Shown here: positions 32,520-40,595 of the stretch, in pieces
How the letters are laid out: every line of letters begins with the position of its first letter
Numbering within the stretch: position 1 is the stretch's first letter
DNA from: SAR202 cluster bacterium
GTDB taxonomy: Bacteria; Chloroflexota; Dehalococcoidia; Lucifugimonadales; Lucifugimonadaceae
Assembly: GCA_016872495.1 (NCBI GenBank)
Contig: VGZT01000011.1
Coordinates: 1 to 52,761, forward strand
Reading direction: 5' to 3'
DNA: 52,761 bases
Notes under the pieces: model-generated
Database searches by the model: none
Seen by the model: only the letters and a program-made list of their open reading frames with translations
What the model was told of the DNA's origin: nothing
Translations under genes and position numbers: made by a program

Positions 32520-34082
32520 ATGGCGCCTGAGCACATCCTGGCCATCGACCAGGGAACGACCAGCACCCGTGCGATCGTCTTCTCACCCGATGCCCGACCG
32601 GTCGGCTCGGCGAGCGTCCCGGTGCGCCAGATCTTCCCGAACCCCGGTTGGGTTGAACACGACCCCGACGAGCTCTTTGACGGCAGCGTCGGCGTGGCCA
32701 CACGTGCGGTCGCGGACGCCGGGCTTGCATTCGACGATATCGCGGCCATCGGCATCACGAACCAGCGCGAGACCACCGTCGTCTGGGAACGGTCGACCGG
32801 GCGGCCGCTGGCCAACGCTATTGTGTGGCAGTGCCGCCGCACCGCGGCGATGTGTGAGGCACTGAAGGCGCAGGGACACGAACCCGACATCCGCAGGCGA
32901 ACCGGCCTGGTCGTCGACGCCTACTTCTCGTCGACGAAGCTGCAGTGGTTGCTCGGGCGGATCCCGTCTGGGCGGGCACGCGCGGAGGCCGGCGAAATCT
33001 GCTTCGGCACGGTCGACAGCTGGCTTCTCTTCCGTTTGACCGGCAGAGAGTTGCACGCCACCGACGCCACCAACGCCTCTCGGACTCAGTTGCTGAACGT
33101 CCACGACCTGGCCTGGGACGAAGCGCTTCTCAAGCTTTTCGAGGTCCCCGAGCGCGTGCTCCCGGAGGTGCGGCCGTCCGCATCTGATTTCGGCAAGACA
33201 CAGGCGTCCGTGTTCGGACGCCCGATTCCTATCACGGGCGTGGCGGGTGACCAGCACGCCGCACTTTATGGCCAGGCCTGCTTCTCGCCTGGTTCGACCA
33301 AGTGCACTTACGGGACGGGCGCCTTCGTACTGGCAAACGCCGGCGGGACCCCGCGCGAGGCGGAATCAGGCCTGATAACGACGGTCGGCTGGTGGACCGG
33401 CCAGAAGCCCGTTTACGCCCTGGAGGGGAGCGTCTTCGTCACCGGCGCCGCCGTTCAATGGCTACGCGACGAGCTCATGGTGATCGCGGACGCTTCCGAA
33501 AGCGACGTACTGGCACAGTCGATACCCGACAACGGTGGCGTCTACTTCGTGCCCGCCTTCGTTGGCCTTGGAGCACCCCACTGGGACGCCGAAGCCCGCG
33601 GCGCGATCGTCGGGCTGACCCGCGGGGCCCACCGTGCTTACCTGGCGCGCGCGGCATTGGAGGCGACCGCCTACCAGGTCAAGGACGTCATCGATGCCAT
33701 GCAGGTGCCGGCCAGCCCGACGACCCGCGGACCGGCCCGGCGTGCCCGCACGCCAGCGGTGGACTCGGGTGCCGCCTTGCGAGCCGACGGCGGCCAGACG
33801 GCCAGTCGGTTCCTGATGCAGTTCCAGGCCGATATCCTGAATCGACCAGTCGAAGTGGCCGCGGTGCAGGAAACGACCGCCCTGGGCGCCGCGTTCCTCG
33901 CGGGCCGGGCGCTCGGGCTATGGGCGTCGGAATCGGAGCTGGCGTCGCTCTGGAGACCCGGCCGCGTCTATGAGCCGAAAATCTCCTCAGGTGAGCGGCT
34001 GGACCTGCTGGCCGGTTGGAAGCGCGCGGTCGCCCAGGCCCGCCATCGCGAAGACCTGGTGGCCCGCCCGACCCGGGCCTGA
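32520..34082 (+). CDS. glpK: Glycerol kinase
   Basis: Phosphorylates glycerol to sn-glycerol-3-phosphate with ATP. FGGY kinase family, 520 residues: AIDQGTTSTRAIVF at the N-terminus, PGWVEHDPDEL, GITNQRETTVVWERSTG with PLANAIVWQCRRT, GVAGDQHAALYGQACF, STKCTYGTGAFVLANAG, and LGAPHWDAEARGAIVGLTRG. The ADGGQTASRFLMQFQADIL region is preceded by a Pro/Arg-rich insertion (SPTTRGPARRARTPAVDSGAA) not found in E. coli GlpK, roughly 20 residues in the ATP-side domain. Likely a benign insertion, but it lies in the part of the enzyme that closes over nucleotide. Probably co-transcribed with the upstream aldo/keto reductase. Confidence 0.93.
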   Translation: MAPEHILAIDQGTTSTRAIVFSPDARPVGSASVPVRQIFPNPGWVEHDPDELFDGSVGVATRAVADAGLAFDDIAAIGITNQRETTVVWERSTGRPLANAIVWQCRRTAAMCEALKAQGHEPDIRRRTGLVVDAYFSSTKLQWLLGRIPSGRARAEAGEICFGTVDSWLLFRLTGRELHATDATNASRTQLLNVHDLAWDEALLKLFEVPERVLPEVRPSASDFGKTQASVFGRPIPITGVAGDQHAALYGQACFSPGSTKCTYGTGAFVLANAGGTPREAESGLITTVGWWTGQKPVYALEGSVFVTGAAVQWLRDELMVIADASESDVLAQSIPDNGGVYFVPAFVGLGAPHWDAEARGAIVGLTRGAHRAYLARAALEATAYQVKDVIDAMQVPASPTTRGPARRARTPAVDSGAALRADGGQTASRFLMQFQADILNRPVEVAAVQETTALGAAFLAGRALGLWASESELASLWRPGRVYEPKISSGERLDLLAGWKRAVAQARHREDLVARPTRA

Positions 34083-34125: not shown

Positions 34126-36435
34126 TCAGGCCTTCCGGCCATTCGACCTGGCAGCCGGACGAGCGGCCAGCGCTTCCAGGATCCGTCCCGGCTTCATCGG
34201 CGCCTGGTTTAGCCGAACCCCGACCGCATCGTGGATCGCGTTGGCGATCGCCGCGACCGGCGGCACGATAGGCACCTCACCCACCCCGCGCACGCCGTAG
34301 GGGTGCGTCGGGTACTGGACCTCGACCAGGATCGTCTCGATCATCGGCGTGTCGAGAGCGGTTGGCATCCGGTAGTCCAGAAAGCTCGAATTGGCCATCG
34401 CCCCCTTGTCGGTGACGAAGTACTCCTCGTTGAGCGCCCAGCCGATGCCCTGCACGGCGCCGCCCTGGATCTGGCCCTCGACGTACGACGGATGGATCGC
34501 CTTGCCCACGTCCTGGATCGCGGTGTAGCGAAGGATGTCGACCTTCCCCGTGTCGGGATCGACCTCCAGGTCGACGATGTGGGTGCCGTACGCGCCGCCC
34601 GCATCCGGGATGTTGACTGTGCCAACTCCGACCACCGGCCCGCCGGTTTCGCCGAGACGGGCTGACAGCTCCTTGAACGACATCTTCAGCTCTGGATCTG
34701 ACTTCGAGAAGAATCTGCCATCTCCGTGAGCGATATCACCCGGCTCACGATTCCAGTGGCGTGCCGCGCGCTTCTTCATCTCCGAGATGACCAGGTCGGC
34801 TGCCTTGATCGCCGCCGCGCCCGTAGCGTAGGTCGTGCGGCTACCCCCGGTTACGTCCGTATAGCCGATGCCGTCGGTGTCAACCACGATCGGCCACACA
34901 TCCTGGGCTCCTATTCCCAGCGCCTCTGCCGCCTGCATCGCGATCGATGCCCGAGAGCCCCCGATGTCGGTCGATCCCTCGACCAGCTGCACGGTCCCGT
35001 CCCCATTGACCGAGATGGCCACTGACGATTCACGCCCCGCGTTGACCCAGAATCCCTGGGCGACCCCCCTGCCACGCACCCGCCCGTCCTTGCCTTTTCG
35101 TACCAGCTTGCTCTTCCAGTGGGGCGACGCCATGGCCGCCTCGAGCACCTCGACGCACCCGATGCGCGGATGGCGGGGCCCGTCGGGGCGGCGGTCTCCT
35201 TCGCGTGCTGCATTCAGGAGCCTGAGCTTGACCGGGTCCATCCCGAGGCGCTCTGCGACTTCGTCAACCACCGTCTCCATCGCGAATGCGGCGTGCGTCG
35301 ATCCTGGCGCCCGGTAGGCGGATGTCTTTGGCTTGTTCACGATCACGTCATAGCCGTCGATCCGCGTGTTGGGGATCTTGTAGGCAGCCATGATGCAGGT
35401 CATGCCGCGCGCTATTGGTGACCCCGGATAGGCCCCGGCTTCATACCGCAGGTCGGCTTCCGCGGCTAGCATGCGGCCTTTCCGATCGACTCCGAGCTTG
35501 ACGCGCACCCGGCCGCCGGGCGTCGGCCCCGTGGCTTCGAAAACGGATCTGCGGTCCATGACCATCTTCACCGGCCGGCCGGCCTTTTTCGACAGGAGGG
35601 CAGCCAGCGGTTCGAGGTATACGGAGATCTTGCCGCCGAAGCCGCCGCCGATCTCCATCGGAACGACCTTGATCCTCGATTCTGGCAACAGGAGCACGCC
35701 GGCTACCTGCTTGCGCACGCCGTGGGCTCCTTGCGTGCTGGTCCAGACGGTTACGCGGCCCTCGGCGTTCCAGTCTGCGGTCGCGTTCTGCGGCTCGATG
35801 TAGCCCTGGTGGACCGTGGCGAGCTCGTACTCGCGCTCAACTACCAATTCGCAACTCGAGAACGCCTTGTCGACTTCGCCGAACTCGTGCCGGTTGTGCG
35901 ACGCCACGTTCGTGTGCGGGACCTTCTTGCCGAGGTGATTCCCGGTCAGGTCTTCGAGCGCGATCGGCGCCGCTTTCGCCATCGCCTCACCGACGTTCAG
36001 GATTGGCGGGAGAAGCTCGTACTTGACGTCGATCAGCTTGAGCGCTTCCAGCGCGGTGTTCTGATCGACGGCGGCAACCGCTGCTACCGGATGGCCCTTG
36101 AAAAGGGCCTTGTCCTGCGCCATCACCTTGTCGCTGTTGTACCGCATGTTCTCGGCGCCCTCGACGAGGTCGACGACCTTCGAGGGGGCCAGGGGCATGT
36201 CGTTTCCGGTGATGACTGCGAAGACACCGGCCAGCTTCTCTGCCTTCGATGTATCGATCTTCTTGATCCGAGCGTGGGCGTGCGGGCTGCGGAGCACGGC
36301 TCCGTGTATCAGGCCGGGGAGTTTCAGGTCGGCGCCGTACAACGCCCGGCCGATCACCTTGTCGAGCCCGTCGTGGCGGACCGGGCGGGTGCCTATGACC
36401 TTGAAGTCTTTGCCGGGCCTGGCGGTAGCTACCAT
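34126..36435 (-). CDS. Xanthine-dehydrogenase-family molybdopterin-binding subunit (paralogue A)
   Basis: 769 residues of the molybdopterin-binding large subunit of molybdenum hydroxylases (xanthine, nicotinate, aldehyde or aromatic dehydrogenases). N-terminal Ald_Xan_dh_C domain: RPVRHDGLDKVIGRALYGAD and RSPHAHARIKKIDTSKAE. Mo-binding region: VEIGGGFGGKISVYLEP, AYRAPGSTHAAFAMETV (not the CO dehydrogenase AYxCSFR loop), and VRGVGEVPIVPPVAAIANAI with the catalytic Glu. No FAD- or 2Fe-2S-binding partner subunits are beside it, so it must pair with a product encoded elsewhere or work with only one. Clear paralogue of the subunit at 38262-40595, on the opposite strand. Confidence 0.88.
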   Translation of the reverse strand: MVATARPGKDFKVIGTRPVRHDGLDKVIGRALYGADLKLPGLIHGAVLRSPHAHARIKKIDTSKAEKLAGVFAVITGNDMPLAPSKVVDLVEGAENMRYNSDKVMAQDKALFKGHPVAAVAAVDQNTALEALKLIDVKYELLPPILNVGEAMAKAAPIALEDLTGNHLGKKVPHTNVASHNRHEFGEVDKAFSSCELVVEREYELATVHQGYIEPQNATADWNAEGRVTVWTSTQGAHGVRKQVAGVLLLPESRIKVVPMEIGGGFGGKISVYLEPLAALLSKKAGRPVKMVMDRRSVFEATGPTPGGRVRVKLGVDRKGRMLAAEADLRYEAGAYPGSPIARGMTCIMAAYKIPNTRIDGYDVIVNKPKTSAYRAPGSTHAAFAMETVVDEVAERLGMDPVKLRLLNAAREGDRRPDGPRHPRIGCVEVLEAAMASPHWKSKLVRKGKDGRVRGRGVAQGFWVNAGRESSVAISVNGDGTVQLVEGSTDIGGSRASIAMQAAEALGIGAQDVWPIVVDTDGIGYTDVTGGSRTTYATGAAAIKAADLVISEMKKRAARHWNREPGDIAHGDGRFFSKSDPELKMSFKELSARLGETGGPVVGVGTVNIPDAGGAYGTHIVDLEVDPDTGKVDILRYTAIQDVGKAIHPSYVEGQIQGGAVQGIGWALNEEYFVTDKGAMANSSFLDYRMPTALDTPMIETILVEVQYPTHPYGVRGVGEVPIVPPVAAIANAIHDAVGVRLNQAPMKPGRILEALAARPAARSNGRKA

Positions 36436-36620: not shown

Positions 36621-37616
36621 ATGTACGTAGGCACACAGGTCGGAGCACGGAATGACACAGACTTCGAGGTCTGGGCACAGCTCGGCGTCAAGAACATTTG
36701 CGCTGATCCGAAGAAAGGCAGCGCCCTCACCTGGACCGTCGACGACCTGAAGAAGCACCGTGAAAAGGTTGAGTCGTACGGCATCACGCTCGACATGGTG
36801 CAGTTGCCCCTGAGCTCGACGCCGCTCGAGCAGTGCCAGAGCCCGAACATCATGCTCGGCAAGAGCCCTGAACGGGATCGTGAGATCGAAGTCATCTGCA
36901 ACCTGATCCGCAACCTGAACCGTGCCGGCATACCGGCCGCGAAGTACAACCTGAACATCATTGGGATACCGCGCACGGCGGACCGCATCGGACGTGGAGG
37001 GTCGCGGAACTCCAGCTTCGAGTGGTCAAAGGCGGAACAGAAGGCAAAGCCGGGCATCGCCGGGGTATTGTCCGAGGACGAGAACTGGGAGCGCATCGAC
37101 TACTTCCTCGAGCGCGTGGTACCGGTGGCTGAGGAGTTCAAGATTCGCCTCGCGTGCCACCCGCACGACCCCTACACGCCACCGGGCTACCGGGGCGTCA
37201 CGCGGGTGCTCGGCACCGTCGACGGCATGAAGAAGTTCGTCCAGATGCACGAGAGCCCCTACCACGGCCTGAACTTCTGCCAGGGGACGGTCTCCGAGAT
37301 GCTCGATAACCCGGGCGAGGAGATCTACGACGTCATCCGTTGGTTTGGCAAGCGCAACAAGATCTTCAACGTCCATTTCCGCAACATCAGGGGCGGCAAG
37401 CTGGACTTCTACGAAACTTTCCCGGATGAAGGCGACGTCGACATGCTGAAGGCGGTCCGGGTCTACCGAGATGTTGGCTACAAGTACATGCTCATGCCCG
37501 ATCACGTCCCCCACATCTCGGGGCCGGATGCCCAGGGCGTCGCGTTTTCGTACTGCTATGGCTACATCCAGGCTTTGATCCAGGCGGTAAATCACGACTG
37601 GAAGAGCAAGCCCTGA
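36621..37616 (+). CDS. Mannonate dehydratase family (UxuA-like) enzyme
   Basis: 331 residues with the TIM-barrel signatures of D-mannonate dehydratase: LACHPHDPYTPPGYRGVTR (metal His region), GLNFCQGTVSEM, NVHFRNIRGGKLDFYETFPDEGDVD and the near-C-terminal MPDHVPHI. UxuA converts D-mannonate to 2-keto-3-deoxygluconate in glucuronate degradation. It is shorter than E. coli UxuA (about 390). No other uronate genes (uxaC, uxuB, kdgK) are adjacent, so another sugar acid is possible. Followed 22 bp later by the OsmC-family gene, probably in the same transcript. Confidence 0.85.
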   Translation: MYVGTQVGARNDTDFEVWAQLGVKNICADPKKGSALTWTVDDLKKHREKVESYGITLDMVQLPLSSTPLEQCQSPNIMLGKSPERDREIEVICNLIRNLNRAGIPAAKYNLNIIGIPRTADRIGRGGSRNSSFEWSKAEQKAKPGIAGVLSEDENWERIDYFLERVVPVAEEFKIRLACHPHDPYTPPGYRGVTRVLGTVDGMKKFVQMHESPYHGLNFCQGTVSEMLDNPGEEIYDVIRWFGKRNKIFNVHFRNIRGGKLDFYETFPDEGDVDMLKAVRVYRDVGYKYMLMPDHVPHISGPDAQGVAFSYCYGYIQALIQAVNHDWKSKP

Positions 37617-37638
37617 CCGGCAGCAGTCGGAGGACGTA

Positions 37639-38124
37639 TTGGCAGACCAGGTCGCATACCGGTCCAGAGTACGAATTGAGCGCATCAAGGGGACGTTGCG
37701 ACGTGCCTTTGTGCCGGCGGAAAGTGAACCGGTCTGGTTCGACGTTCATTCTGAGATCGCCGAGCATTACGGGGTGCAGATTGCGGGAAGGCCCCCGCAT
37801 GCAGCGACGATCGATTACTTGGTCGCCGCGACCGCCGGTTGACTCACCGGCACATTCGGAGGCGCGCTGGAAGCGCGCCAGGTACCGGCGGGAGAGGGAT
37901 ACCTCACTGCAGAAGCGGTCGGCGAGATCGAGAAGGAAGATGGCGTGCTGGTGATCAAGCGGATACACGTCCGCTACCGGCTGCGGGTCGAGAAGGGTCT
38001 GCTCGAAGGGAAGCGCGAGGCCATCGATCGTGCCATGACCTTCCATCCGGACCGGTGCCCGGTTGCTCGCTCGATCAAGGCGGCAATCGCGCTTTCGACA
38101 GAGCTTGAGATCGAGCCACTCTGA
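37639..38124 (+). CDS. OsmC-family protein read through an in-frame TGA: predicted selenoprotein
   Basis: TTG start with GGAGG five bases upstream. The frame runs 161 codons to TGA 38122-38124 with a single internal TGA (codon 68, 37840-37842). Sequence: an N-terminal strand region RSRVRIERIKGTLRRAFV, the helix IDYLVAATAG-[68]-LTGTFGGALEARQ, a second beta part (GEIEKEDGVLVIKRIHVRYRL), then MTFHPDRCPVARSIKAA with Cys140 and ALSTELEIEPL. In OsmC/Ohr proteins a redox-active Cys follows the (A/G)G of this helix and pairs with a Cys about 65-72 residues later; here that first position is the TGA and Cys140 is the partner. OsmC-like selenoproteins are known from metagenomes. A hairpin suited to a SECIS follows. 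The alternative is a recent nonsense mutation. Likely role: peroxide or hydroperoxide reduction. Confidence 0.82.
37840..37842 (+). other. In-frame TGA at the OsmC cysteine position (predicted selenocysteine codon)
   Basis: TGA interrupts an otherwise intact frame exactly where related proteins have the peroxidatic cysteine (AAxxG-C-LTG). No other stop is present between 37639 and 38121. Confidence 0.75.
37861..37879 (+). promoter_or_regulatory. Candidate bacterial SECIS hairpin
   Basis: GGCGCGC-TGGAA-GCGCGCC: a perfect 7-bp stem with a 5-nt loop having G at positions 2 and 3. The loop starts 26 nt after the TGA, within the range usual for bacterial SECIS elements, which need a G among the first two loop bases. 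It is also coding (Gly-Ala-Leu-Glu-Ala-Arg), so GC-rich codon use could create it by chance. Confidence 0.6.
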
Positions 38125-38261: not shown

Positions 38262-40595
38262 ATGGTCGCAACTCCTGAGAAGACTAAGTCCGGCCAGACC
38301 TTCAAGGTGGTCGGCACGAGCCCAATCCGCCACGACGGCTACGACAAGGTGGTCGGCCGCGCGCTATATGGCGGGGACGTGCGGCTGCCCGGGATGATCT
38401 GGGGCGAGGTGTTGCGCAGCCCGCACGCGCATGCCCGGATCAAGAAGATCGACACGTCCGAGGCGTTGAAGATGCCGGGCGTGCTCGGGGCGATCACGCA
38501 CGCAGACCTGCCGGCGGCGGAAGCCAAGGATATCGACATCGGGGAAGGCGTCGTCAACTTCCGCCGGGCCAGCATGAACATCCTGGCCGACAAGAAGGTG
38601 CTTTACAAAGGCCACATGGTTGCTGCCGTCGCAGCTGTCGACCGCAACACGGCGCTCGAGGCCGTCAAGAAGATACGCGTGGAGTACGAGCCGCTGCCGG
38701 TCGTCCGCAACGTGGACGACGCGCTGGCCAAGAACGCACCGATCCTCCTCGACGACCTGGTTGGTGACGACCTGGGGACGCCGGTCAAGAAGACTAACGT
38801 CGCCCGCCACTTCCGGCACGAGTTCGGCGACCCCGATGGCGCAATGAAAAAGGCTTCACTGGTCGTCGACCGCACCTTCTCACTCGAGATGGTGCACCAG
38901 GGCTATATCGAACTGCACAACGCGACTGCCGTCTGGGAACAGGGCGGCAGAATCACGATCTGGTCGAGCACGCAGGGAGCTTTCGGCGTGCGCGCGCAGA
39001 CCGCCGGCATCCTGCGCGTTCCTGAGTCGCAGATCAAGGTCAACCCGGTCGAAATCGGCGGTGGTTTCGGTGGGAAGACCGTCATTTACTTGCCCCCGAT
39101 CGCGGCGATCCTTTCGAAGAAGACCGGTCGACCAGTCAAGATGGTCATGGACCGGAAGTCGGTATTCGAGGGAACCGGGCCGGCGCCGGGGGGCAAGGTG
39201 CGGGTCCGCATGGGCGTCGACGACAAGGGCAAGATCGTTGCCGCGACCGCCGACATCAAGTTCGAAGCCGGGGCGTTCCCTGGCTCGGCGGTGGGCGCGG
39301 GCGGGATCTGCATCTTCGCCCCCTACAACGTGGCGAACACGCGGATCGACGGCTATGACGTCCTCGTCAACAAGCCCAAGTCGGCTGCCTACCGGGCGCC
39401 GGGCTCGCCGCAGGTGGCGTTCGCTACCGAGTCGGTCGTGGATGAGATCTGCAACGCCCGCGGGTACGACAAGGTCGAATTCCGCCTGAAGAACGCCTCA
39501 CACGAGGGCACACGGCGCGCCGACGGTCCGATCTTCGGCCGCGTGGGCCTGATCGAGACCCTGGAGGCCGCCAGGAACTCGGCCCACTGGAAGTCGCCTC
39601 TTAAAAAGATCGGCCCCGACGGGAAGCTGCGGGGACGCGGCATTGCAACCGGTTTCTGGATGAACGGGGGCGGCAAGTCGACCTGTGACCTGGCCGTCAA
39701 CGGCGACGGCACCGTGTTCATGAACGAAGGCTCAGCCGACATCGGTGGCACCCGCGCATCGATCGCCATGCAGGCGGCCGAAGCGCTGGGGATCGCGGCG
39801 CACGACGTGCGGCCCAGTATCCCGGACACCGACAGCATCGGCTTCACGGGCGTGACCGGCGGCAGCCGGACGACCTACGCGACCGGGCTCGCGGCGTACA
39901 ACGCAGCGATGAAGCTGATCGACGCCCTGAAGGGGCGGGCGGCCCAGATCTGGGACCGCAAGGAAACGGACATCGAATTCAAGGACGGCGTCTTCTGCTC
40001 GAAGTCAGACCCCGCCCTGAAGCTGACCTTCAAGCAGCTGGCCGGCAAGCTCGACGGCACCGGCGGCCCGGTAACGTCGACCGCTTCGGTCGAGCTGGCT
40101 GCGGCCGGCAACAGCTTTGCGGTCGGCATCTGCGACCTCGAAGTGGACCCCGAGACCGGCAAGACCGACGTGATTCGCTACACGGCGATCCAGGATGTCG
40201 GCCGTGCCGTCCACCCGGCCTTCGTCGAGGGCCAGATGCAGGGCGGCGCGGTGCAGGGAATTGGCTGGGCGCTGAATGAGGAGTACTTCATGACCGAGAA
40301 CGGGGTCATGGCAAACTCCAGCTTCCTCGACTACCGCATGCCCACTTCGCTTGACCTGCCGATGATCGACACGATCCTGGTCGAGGTGCCGACTCCACTG
40401 CACCCGTACGGGGTACGCGGAGTCGCCGAGGTCCCGCTTGCGCCACCTCTCGGCGCGATCCCGAACGCGCTCTACGACGCGCTCGGCGTCCGGTTCACCG
40501 TCCAACCGATCCGGCCGGGCCGGATCCTCGAGGCGCTGGCAGCCAAGCCTGGTTCCAGTAATGGCGCCAGGTCGAACGGCCGCCGCCCGTCATAG
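38262..40595 (+). CDS. Xanthine-dehydrogenase-family molybdopterin-binding subunit (paralogue B)
   Basis: 777 residues, same architecture as paralogue A: SPIRHDGYDKVVGRALYGGD, RSPHAHARIKKIDTSEA, VEIGGGFGGKTVIYLPP, AYRAPGSPQVAFATESVVDE and VRGVAEVPLAPPLGAIPNAL with the catalytic Glu retained (GVAE, where A has GVGE). The two align along their whole length with many identical stretches, so they arose by duplication. Again no FAD or Fe-S subunit gene lies adjacent. ATG at 38262 with AAGGGG nearby. The protein ends GRRPS before a strong terminator. Substrate undetermined. Confidence 0.88.
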   Translation: MVATPEKTKSGQTFKVVGTSPIRHDGYDKVVGRALYGGDVRLPGMIWGEVLRSPHAHARIKKIDTSEALKMPGVLGAITHADLPAAEAKDIDIGEGVVNFRRASMNILADKKVLYKGHMVAAVAAVDRNTALEAVKKIRVEYEPLPVVRNVDDALAKNAPILLDDLVGDDLGTPVKKTNVARHFRHEFGDPDGAMKKASLVVDRTFSLEMVHQGYIELHNATAVWEQGGRITIWSSTQGAFGVRAQTAGILRVPESQIKVNPVEIGGGFGGKTVIYLPPIAAILSKKTGRPVKMVMDRKSVFEGTGPAPGGKVRVRMGVDDKGKIVAATADIKFEAGAFPGSAVGAGGICIFAPYNVANTRIDGYDVLVNKPKSAAYRAPGSPQVAFATESVVDEICNARGYDKVEFRLKNASHEGTRRADGPIFGRVGLIETLEAARNSAHWKSPLKKIGPDGKLRGRGIATGFWMNGGGKSTCDLAVNGDGTVFMNEGSADIGGTRASIAMQAAEALGIAAHDVRPSIPDTDSIGFTGVTGGSRTTYATGLAAYNAAMKLIDALKGRAAQIWDRKETDIEFKDGVFCSKSDPALKLTFKQLAGKLDGTGGPVTSTASVELAAAGNSFAVGICDLEVDPETGKTDVIRYTAIQDVGRAVHPAFVEGQMQGGAVQGIGWALNEEYFMTENGVMANSSFLDYRMPTSLDLPMIDTILVEVPTPLHPYGVRGVAEVPLAPPLGAIPNALYDALGVRFTVQPIRPGRILEALAAKPGSSNGARSNGRRPS

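Follow-up and report, generated by a model that had tools for sequence, protein, structure and literature searches.

A redox-active OsmC-type protein with selenocysteine (Sec) at its active site appears to be encoded in SAR202-group Chloroflexota, as judged by comparing a 52,761-nt stretch of DNA (the window) with a large set of homologous loci. The gene carries a single in-frame TGA at codon 68, the position of the peroxidatic cysteine in OsmC proteins, and the decoding of this UGA as Sec is assigned a probability of about 0.95. The window comes from a Chloroflexota assembly of 2.34 Mb that is 98% complete with 1.6% contamination. The features considered are as follows (all on the + strand).

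32520..34082, +, FGGY kinase, glycerol kinase GlpK (over the cut-off of NCBIfam TIGR01311; neighbourhood common to relatives)
36621..37616, +, UxuA-like gene (mannonate dehydratase-like, TIM barrel; Pfam PF03786, E 4.8e-45), ending in TGA
37629..37633, +, Shine-Dalgarno-like GGAGG, 5 bases 5' of the TTG start (read from the sequence)
37639..38124, +, predicted OsmC-family selenoprotein gene of 161 codons, with codon 68 as Sec, a TTG start and the stop TGA at 38122-38124
37840..37842, +, in-frame TGA, predicted U68 at the peroxidatic Cys position (homologue codon comparison)
37861..37879, +, SECIS-like hairpin with loop TGGAA (synonymous constraint and recoding fold test)
38056..38058, +, codon 140 (TGC), the conserved second (resolving) Cys

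Codon 68 and the selenocysteine machinery

The OsmC frame contains exactly one internal TGA, and the positions that an initial annotation had given for this codon and for the 161-codon frame were all exact. The frame matches the Pfam OsmC family (PF02566) with an E value of 1.3e-10 (42 bits against a gathering score of 27.5), and its start and end are the same in homologues, to which full-length identity reaches 63%. Homologues were collected by searching with the OsmC protein in three sets: 400 genomes of the phylum, of which 38 gave a match; 60 relatives, of which 15 did; and a wider set of contigs, where matches were found in 311 relatives and the best 80 of the 311 were kept. The codon aligned with U68 could be read at 124 loci and is TGA in 122 of them; the exceptions are L051, with TGC, and L052, with TGG. 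These counts are to be read with a sampling in which the best 80 of 311 favour close, Sec-type members and Cys relatives outside Chloroflexota were taken without control. Downstream of the TGA, the frame is conserved to its end in the homologues. The TGA-form gene, together with its RNA signal, was found in more than 100 genomes of several phyla, including Chloroflexota, Acidobacteriota, Thermodesulfobacteriota, Actinomycetota, Nitrospirota, Gemmatimonadota, Poribacteria and others. It is also present in a cultured SAR202 strain, Ca. Lucifugimonas marina JH1073, whose circular genome was closed with PacBio reads (L071, CP046147), and a locus from a same-family genome (L140, G409) represents the same gene as L071. 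The main text of the paper on Ca. Lucifugimonas marina mentions neither selenium nor OsmC (PMC10444878).

The Cys-type OsmC proteins of the phylum have Cys at the positions of both U68 and C140 in 23 of 23 cases, and Cys140 is retained in all 91 aligned proteins; the placement of the TGA at the conserved first Cys site, and of a second Cys at 140, had been proposed earlier and is borne out by these alignments. The homologue with TGG (Trp) at the Sec codon (L052, G303) has a broken hairpin and a genome that still encodes SelB, possibly reflecting decay of a selenoprotein gene or a sequence error.

A search for selA, selB, selC and selD in the same genome, suggested by the initial annotation, detected all four, on four assembly contigs other than the one with the OsmC gene. 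The tRNA-Sec scored 70.3 bits against a gathering score of 47 (98 nt, with the anticodon TCA assigned by ARAGORN), SelB 345 bits (cut-off 242), SelA 535 bits (cut-off 268) and SelD 377 bits (cut-off 125). The host SelD gene (L023, contig C38 of G000, match 1501-2424) itself has an in-frame TGA in the active-site motif ASCAGUAGK, followed by a hairpin; counted with the OsmC gene, the host genome thus has at least two predicted selenoproteins. SelB was present in 37 of the 42 checked genomes with a TGA-form OsmC gene (three of the five lacking it are <85% complete) and in 11 of the 21 genomes of the same family that lack the OsmC gene.

The hairpin downstream of the UGA

Bacterial SECIS elements are stem-loops located just 3' of the UGA, with a small loop that has an early G. 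In the window, the arms GGCGCGC (37861-37867) and GCGCGCC (37873-37879) enclose the loop TGGAA (37868-37872), forming a perfect 7-bp stem after an 18-nt spacer, with the loop beginning at the 26th base past the TGA, precisely the geometry that had been described beforehand. ViennaRNA adds a U-A pair, giving 8 bp and the loop GGA. Under the SECIS rules, which were applied by hand, the hairpin has the expected stem-loop form (7-8 bp stem, loop TGGAA or GGA beginning 26-27 nt past the UGA). Taken alone, it was unremarkable for GC-rich DNA when compared with shuffled sequences (z = -0.89; 35 of 200 shuffles folded equally well), and an Rfam search at the hairpin site gave no match. Since the single-sequence fold statistics were not significant, comparative tests were used.

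The synonymous test covered conserved residues in 100 TGA homologues and compared codon choice with each gene's own codon usage. Codon choice was frozen at codons 75, 76, 77, 79 and 80 (z = 7.7, 10.1, 7.2, 12.0 and 10.7, respectively), which are the codons of the hairpin stem, and z did not exceed 5.2 at any other codon of the gene; these values and the fold scores below come from related sequences and are not independent probabilities. In the recoding fold test, real sequences were compared with synonymous recodings in 28 windows of ten codons each across the gene, and only codons +5 to +14 past the TGA were clearly more stable than the recodings (mean z -1.48, s.e. 0.12). No extra fold stability relative to recodings was found in the Cys homologue (p 0.26) or the Trp homologue (p 0.43).

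Two main sequence types, GCG-CTG-GAR-GCG and GCC-CTT-GAG-GCN, both encode Ala-Leu-Glu-Ala and differ in their stems and in their internally frozen codons; each passes the recoding fold test alone (z -1.86 and -1.84). More distant relatives have the hairpin in yet another register. RNAalifold gave only a weak common structure for all 110 distinct windows, because the hairpin register shifts between clades. A base-pair count allowing G-U pairs and one mismatch ranked the real hairpins no better than recodings, the criterion being too permissive. The SAR202 type, whose loop CUUGA has its G in fourth place, fits the textbook early-loop-G rule less well than the window's type (TGGAA). Codon choice and fold stability across homologues show selection on the hairpin at the RNA level.

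The earlier proposal that the UGA is read as Sec is thus supported by the TGA at 122 of 124 loci, by the machinery and by the selection on the hairpin. The same data bear on other explanations of the codon. A single in-frame stop in a good frame is typical of a fresh pseudogene, and the gene might be an ordinary Cys-OsmC gene in which the TGA arose by nonsense mutation or sequencing error; the retention of the TGA at nearly all loci in several phyla and in the cultured strain's closed genome, the conservation of the downstream frame and the frozen synonymous codons of the hairpin leave that explanation with almost no probability. A sequencing error at 37840-37842, which the initial annotation had named as a risk, is in practice ruled out, as the TGA recurs in independent genomes, the PacBio-closed one among them. 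It is also very unlikely that the UGA specifies another amino acid, either Trp through an altered genetic code or Cys through a tRNA-Sec-like tRNA that has been recoded. Such a reading could draw on the TGG of one homologue and on the UCA-anticodon tRNAs carrying Cys that are known in some bacteria. However, UGA is a normal stop in the window, terminating the UxuA-like, FGGY and other genes, both SelA and SelD are encoded, the site is Cys and not Trp in all sampled Cys-OsmC proteins, and the hairpin lies 3' of the codon, where SelB requires it. A general reassignment of UGA was rejected on these grounds.

Fold, proposed chemistry and gene neighbourhood

An AlphaFold model built from a 19-homologue alignment (pLDDT 93) has the OsmC fold, and its top PDB matches are OsmC/Ohr proteins (2onf, Z 14.8; E. 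coli OsmC 1nye, Z 13.3; Ohr, Z about 12). The model places U68 on the long helix at the centre of the protein; Cys140, the likely resolving residue, falls between two helices close to the C terminus. Both redox positions of OsmC/Ohr proteins, peroxidatic and resolving, are kept as U68 and C140. In the Ohr cycle, the peroxide is reduced by the peroxidatic Cys, which then forms a resolving disulphide with the second Cys, and this disulphide is in turn reduced by lipoylated proteins; some Ohr/OsmC proteins, such as YhfA, are without known activity, and the Ohr of X. fastidiosa has a catalytic Glu51 in the Cys-containing helix (PMC5962072). Among the Cys-OsmC proteins, 18 of 23 have Glu nine residues before the Cys, where the window protein has Asp; Asp59 and Leu/Ile58 occupy two positions at which the Cys-OsmC proteins mostly have one Glu.

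A pathway from gene to catalytic cycle can be proposed from these features. Translation would initiate at the TTG at 37639, and the hairpin downstream of the UGA at 37840-37842 would act as a bacterial SECIS, recruiting SelB and Sec-tRNA-Sec, so that Sec would be inserted at this codon and translation would run on to the UGA at 38122. In the resulting protein, Sec68 would occupy the position of the peroxidatic cysteine on the active-site helix, with Cys140 in the place of the resolving cysteine. A Se-S/selenenic acid cycle may then operate by analogy with Ohr: the selenolate of Sec68 would reduce a hydroperoxide or a similar oxidised substrate, its selenenic acid would condense with Cys140 to form a Se-S bond, and thioredoxin or a lipoylated protein would serve as the dithiol donor that reduces this bond. 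Peroxidase-type thiol/selenol chemistry is considered reasonably probable, given that the protein has a predicted OsmC/Ohr fold and keeps both redox residues.

The UxuA-like gene ends 22 nt before the OsmC start, and the two genes probably share one operon. The UxuA-like protein fell below the cut-offs of the NCBIfam mannonate dehydratase models. SAR202 relatives have a UxuA-like gene directly or nearly 5' of the OsmC gene, often preceded by an FGGY kinase, and this context holds even at about 45% OsmC identity (L148-L150); elsewhere, the OsmC-gene neighbours are sugar-type ABC transporters and SDR dehydrogenases. The UxuA-OsmC pair is flanked by genes for two large molybdopterin-binding subunits of the xanthine dehydrogenase/aldehyde oxidase type on opposite strands, at 34126-36435 (-), which was scanned against Pfam only, and at 38262-40595 (+), which was over no NCBIfam cut-off.

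This neighbourhood offers a tentative lead towards carbon catabolism, and a link specific to the catabolic operon seems rather doubtful. A selenoprotein without a peroxidase role might nevertheless be envisaged, namely an oxidoreductase or transferase that depends on Sec and whose substrate would be a metabolite of the adjoining carbon-catabolism operon. The upstream genes in SAR202, the transporters and dehydrogenases elsewhere, the Asp in place of the usual Glu, and the failure to reach the cut-off in any NCBIfam OsmC model would all suit such an enzyme. On the other hand, both OsmC/Ohr redox residues are kept, the neighbours differ in other phyla, and a reaction cannot be read from a neighbourhood, which makes this the less probable course. 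A broader scenario is likewise somewhat unlikely: a second, separately evolved OsmC selenoprotein family, almost always with Sec (one Cys relative), spread over many phyla and tied to a catabolic operon in SAR202, with members that would act on an intermediate or by-product of catabolism rather than on hydroperoxides in general. Peroxidase-type chemistry remains the preferred reading.

Relation to OsmC families and known selenoproteins

The first OsmC-like selenoproteins, three sequences with a UxxT motif from the Sargasso Sea, have been known since 2005 and were reported to have a hairpin 3' of the UGA (PMC1088965). OsmC-like selenoproteins were found again in the GOS survey (PMC2398784), and reviews of 2022 and 2026 give them one line, again as UxxT (PMC9312934, PMC13188914). 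The members of NCBIfam NF041052 (OsmC_like_Se) in Chloroflexota mostly have U-[LM]-L-T-Q, with Sec at the same aligned position, and the shared motif suggests that the surveys' UxxT family corresponds to NF041052. The initial annotation had linked the window gene to the OsmC-like selenoproteins of metagenomic surveys; such proteins do exist, but the surveys' family is a different subfamily. The window protein shares with NF041052 the OsmC superfamily, Sec at the peroxidatic Cys position and occurrence in Chloroflexota, whereas its score against that model is 13.5 bits (cut-off 95) and its motif is U-L-T-G-T, within a family pattern of U-[LM]-x-G-T. G stands at U+3 in 50 of 50 aligned members of the window's subfamily, where UxxT proteins have T. 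In a quick tree without bootstrap, NF041052 and the window family lie on separate branches, both at 99%, and the window branch is long.

Within the same quick tree, the window protein groups with SAR202 sequences (84% support). Horizontal transfer from outside the family was considered, given that the window gene and its SAR202 relatives have different hairpin types, and was set aside; the shared upstream UxuA/FGGY genes and the tree support speak for ordinary descent without amounting to proof.

Additional OsmC-like frames with an in-frame TGA at the conserved Cys were observed. Four loci (L198, L199, L200 and L201, in G077, G033, G117 and G284) read AALGT-U-TAMT or similar, and this U-T-A-M-T group is probably a third Sec-bearing lineage in Chloroflexota. 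Another such frame (L202, G122), from the same class as the window's genome, reads AALAA-U-TVVT. By alignment, Sec would thus occupy the same residue in at least two, probably three, OsmC lineages, implying recurrence within one fold.

A gene with an in-frame TGA is easily annotated as two fragments or as a pseudogene, and no NCBIfam model is over its cut-off here; the extent to which SAR202 and other abundant uncultured bacteria use selenium may therefore be underestimated. A family that is nearly all Sec is useful for the question of why Sec is retained, and the cultured SAR202 strain that carries the gene opens the selenoprotein reading to experiment.

Compared with known systems, the Ohr/OsmC Cys peroxidases share the fold and both redox positions with the window protein, and differ in having Cys where it has predicted Sec and usually Glu where it has Asp. 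The NCBIfam OsmC model gives the window protein 20.8 bits (cut-off 85.8), and no Ohr model matches it. By both sequence and fold, the closest solved structure is Ta0195 of Thermoplasma acidophilum (PDB 2onf), an archaeal OsmC-like protein with 16% identity that is not a reported selenoprotein. The U-[LM]-x-G-T proteins are not a new kind of system; by sequence, the window protein is a member of a distinct, almost always Sec-containing subfamily of OsmC, outside the listed family NF041052.
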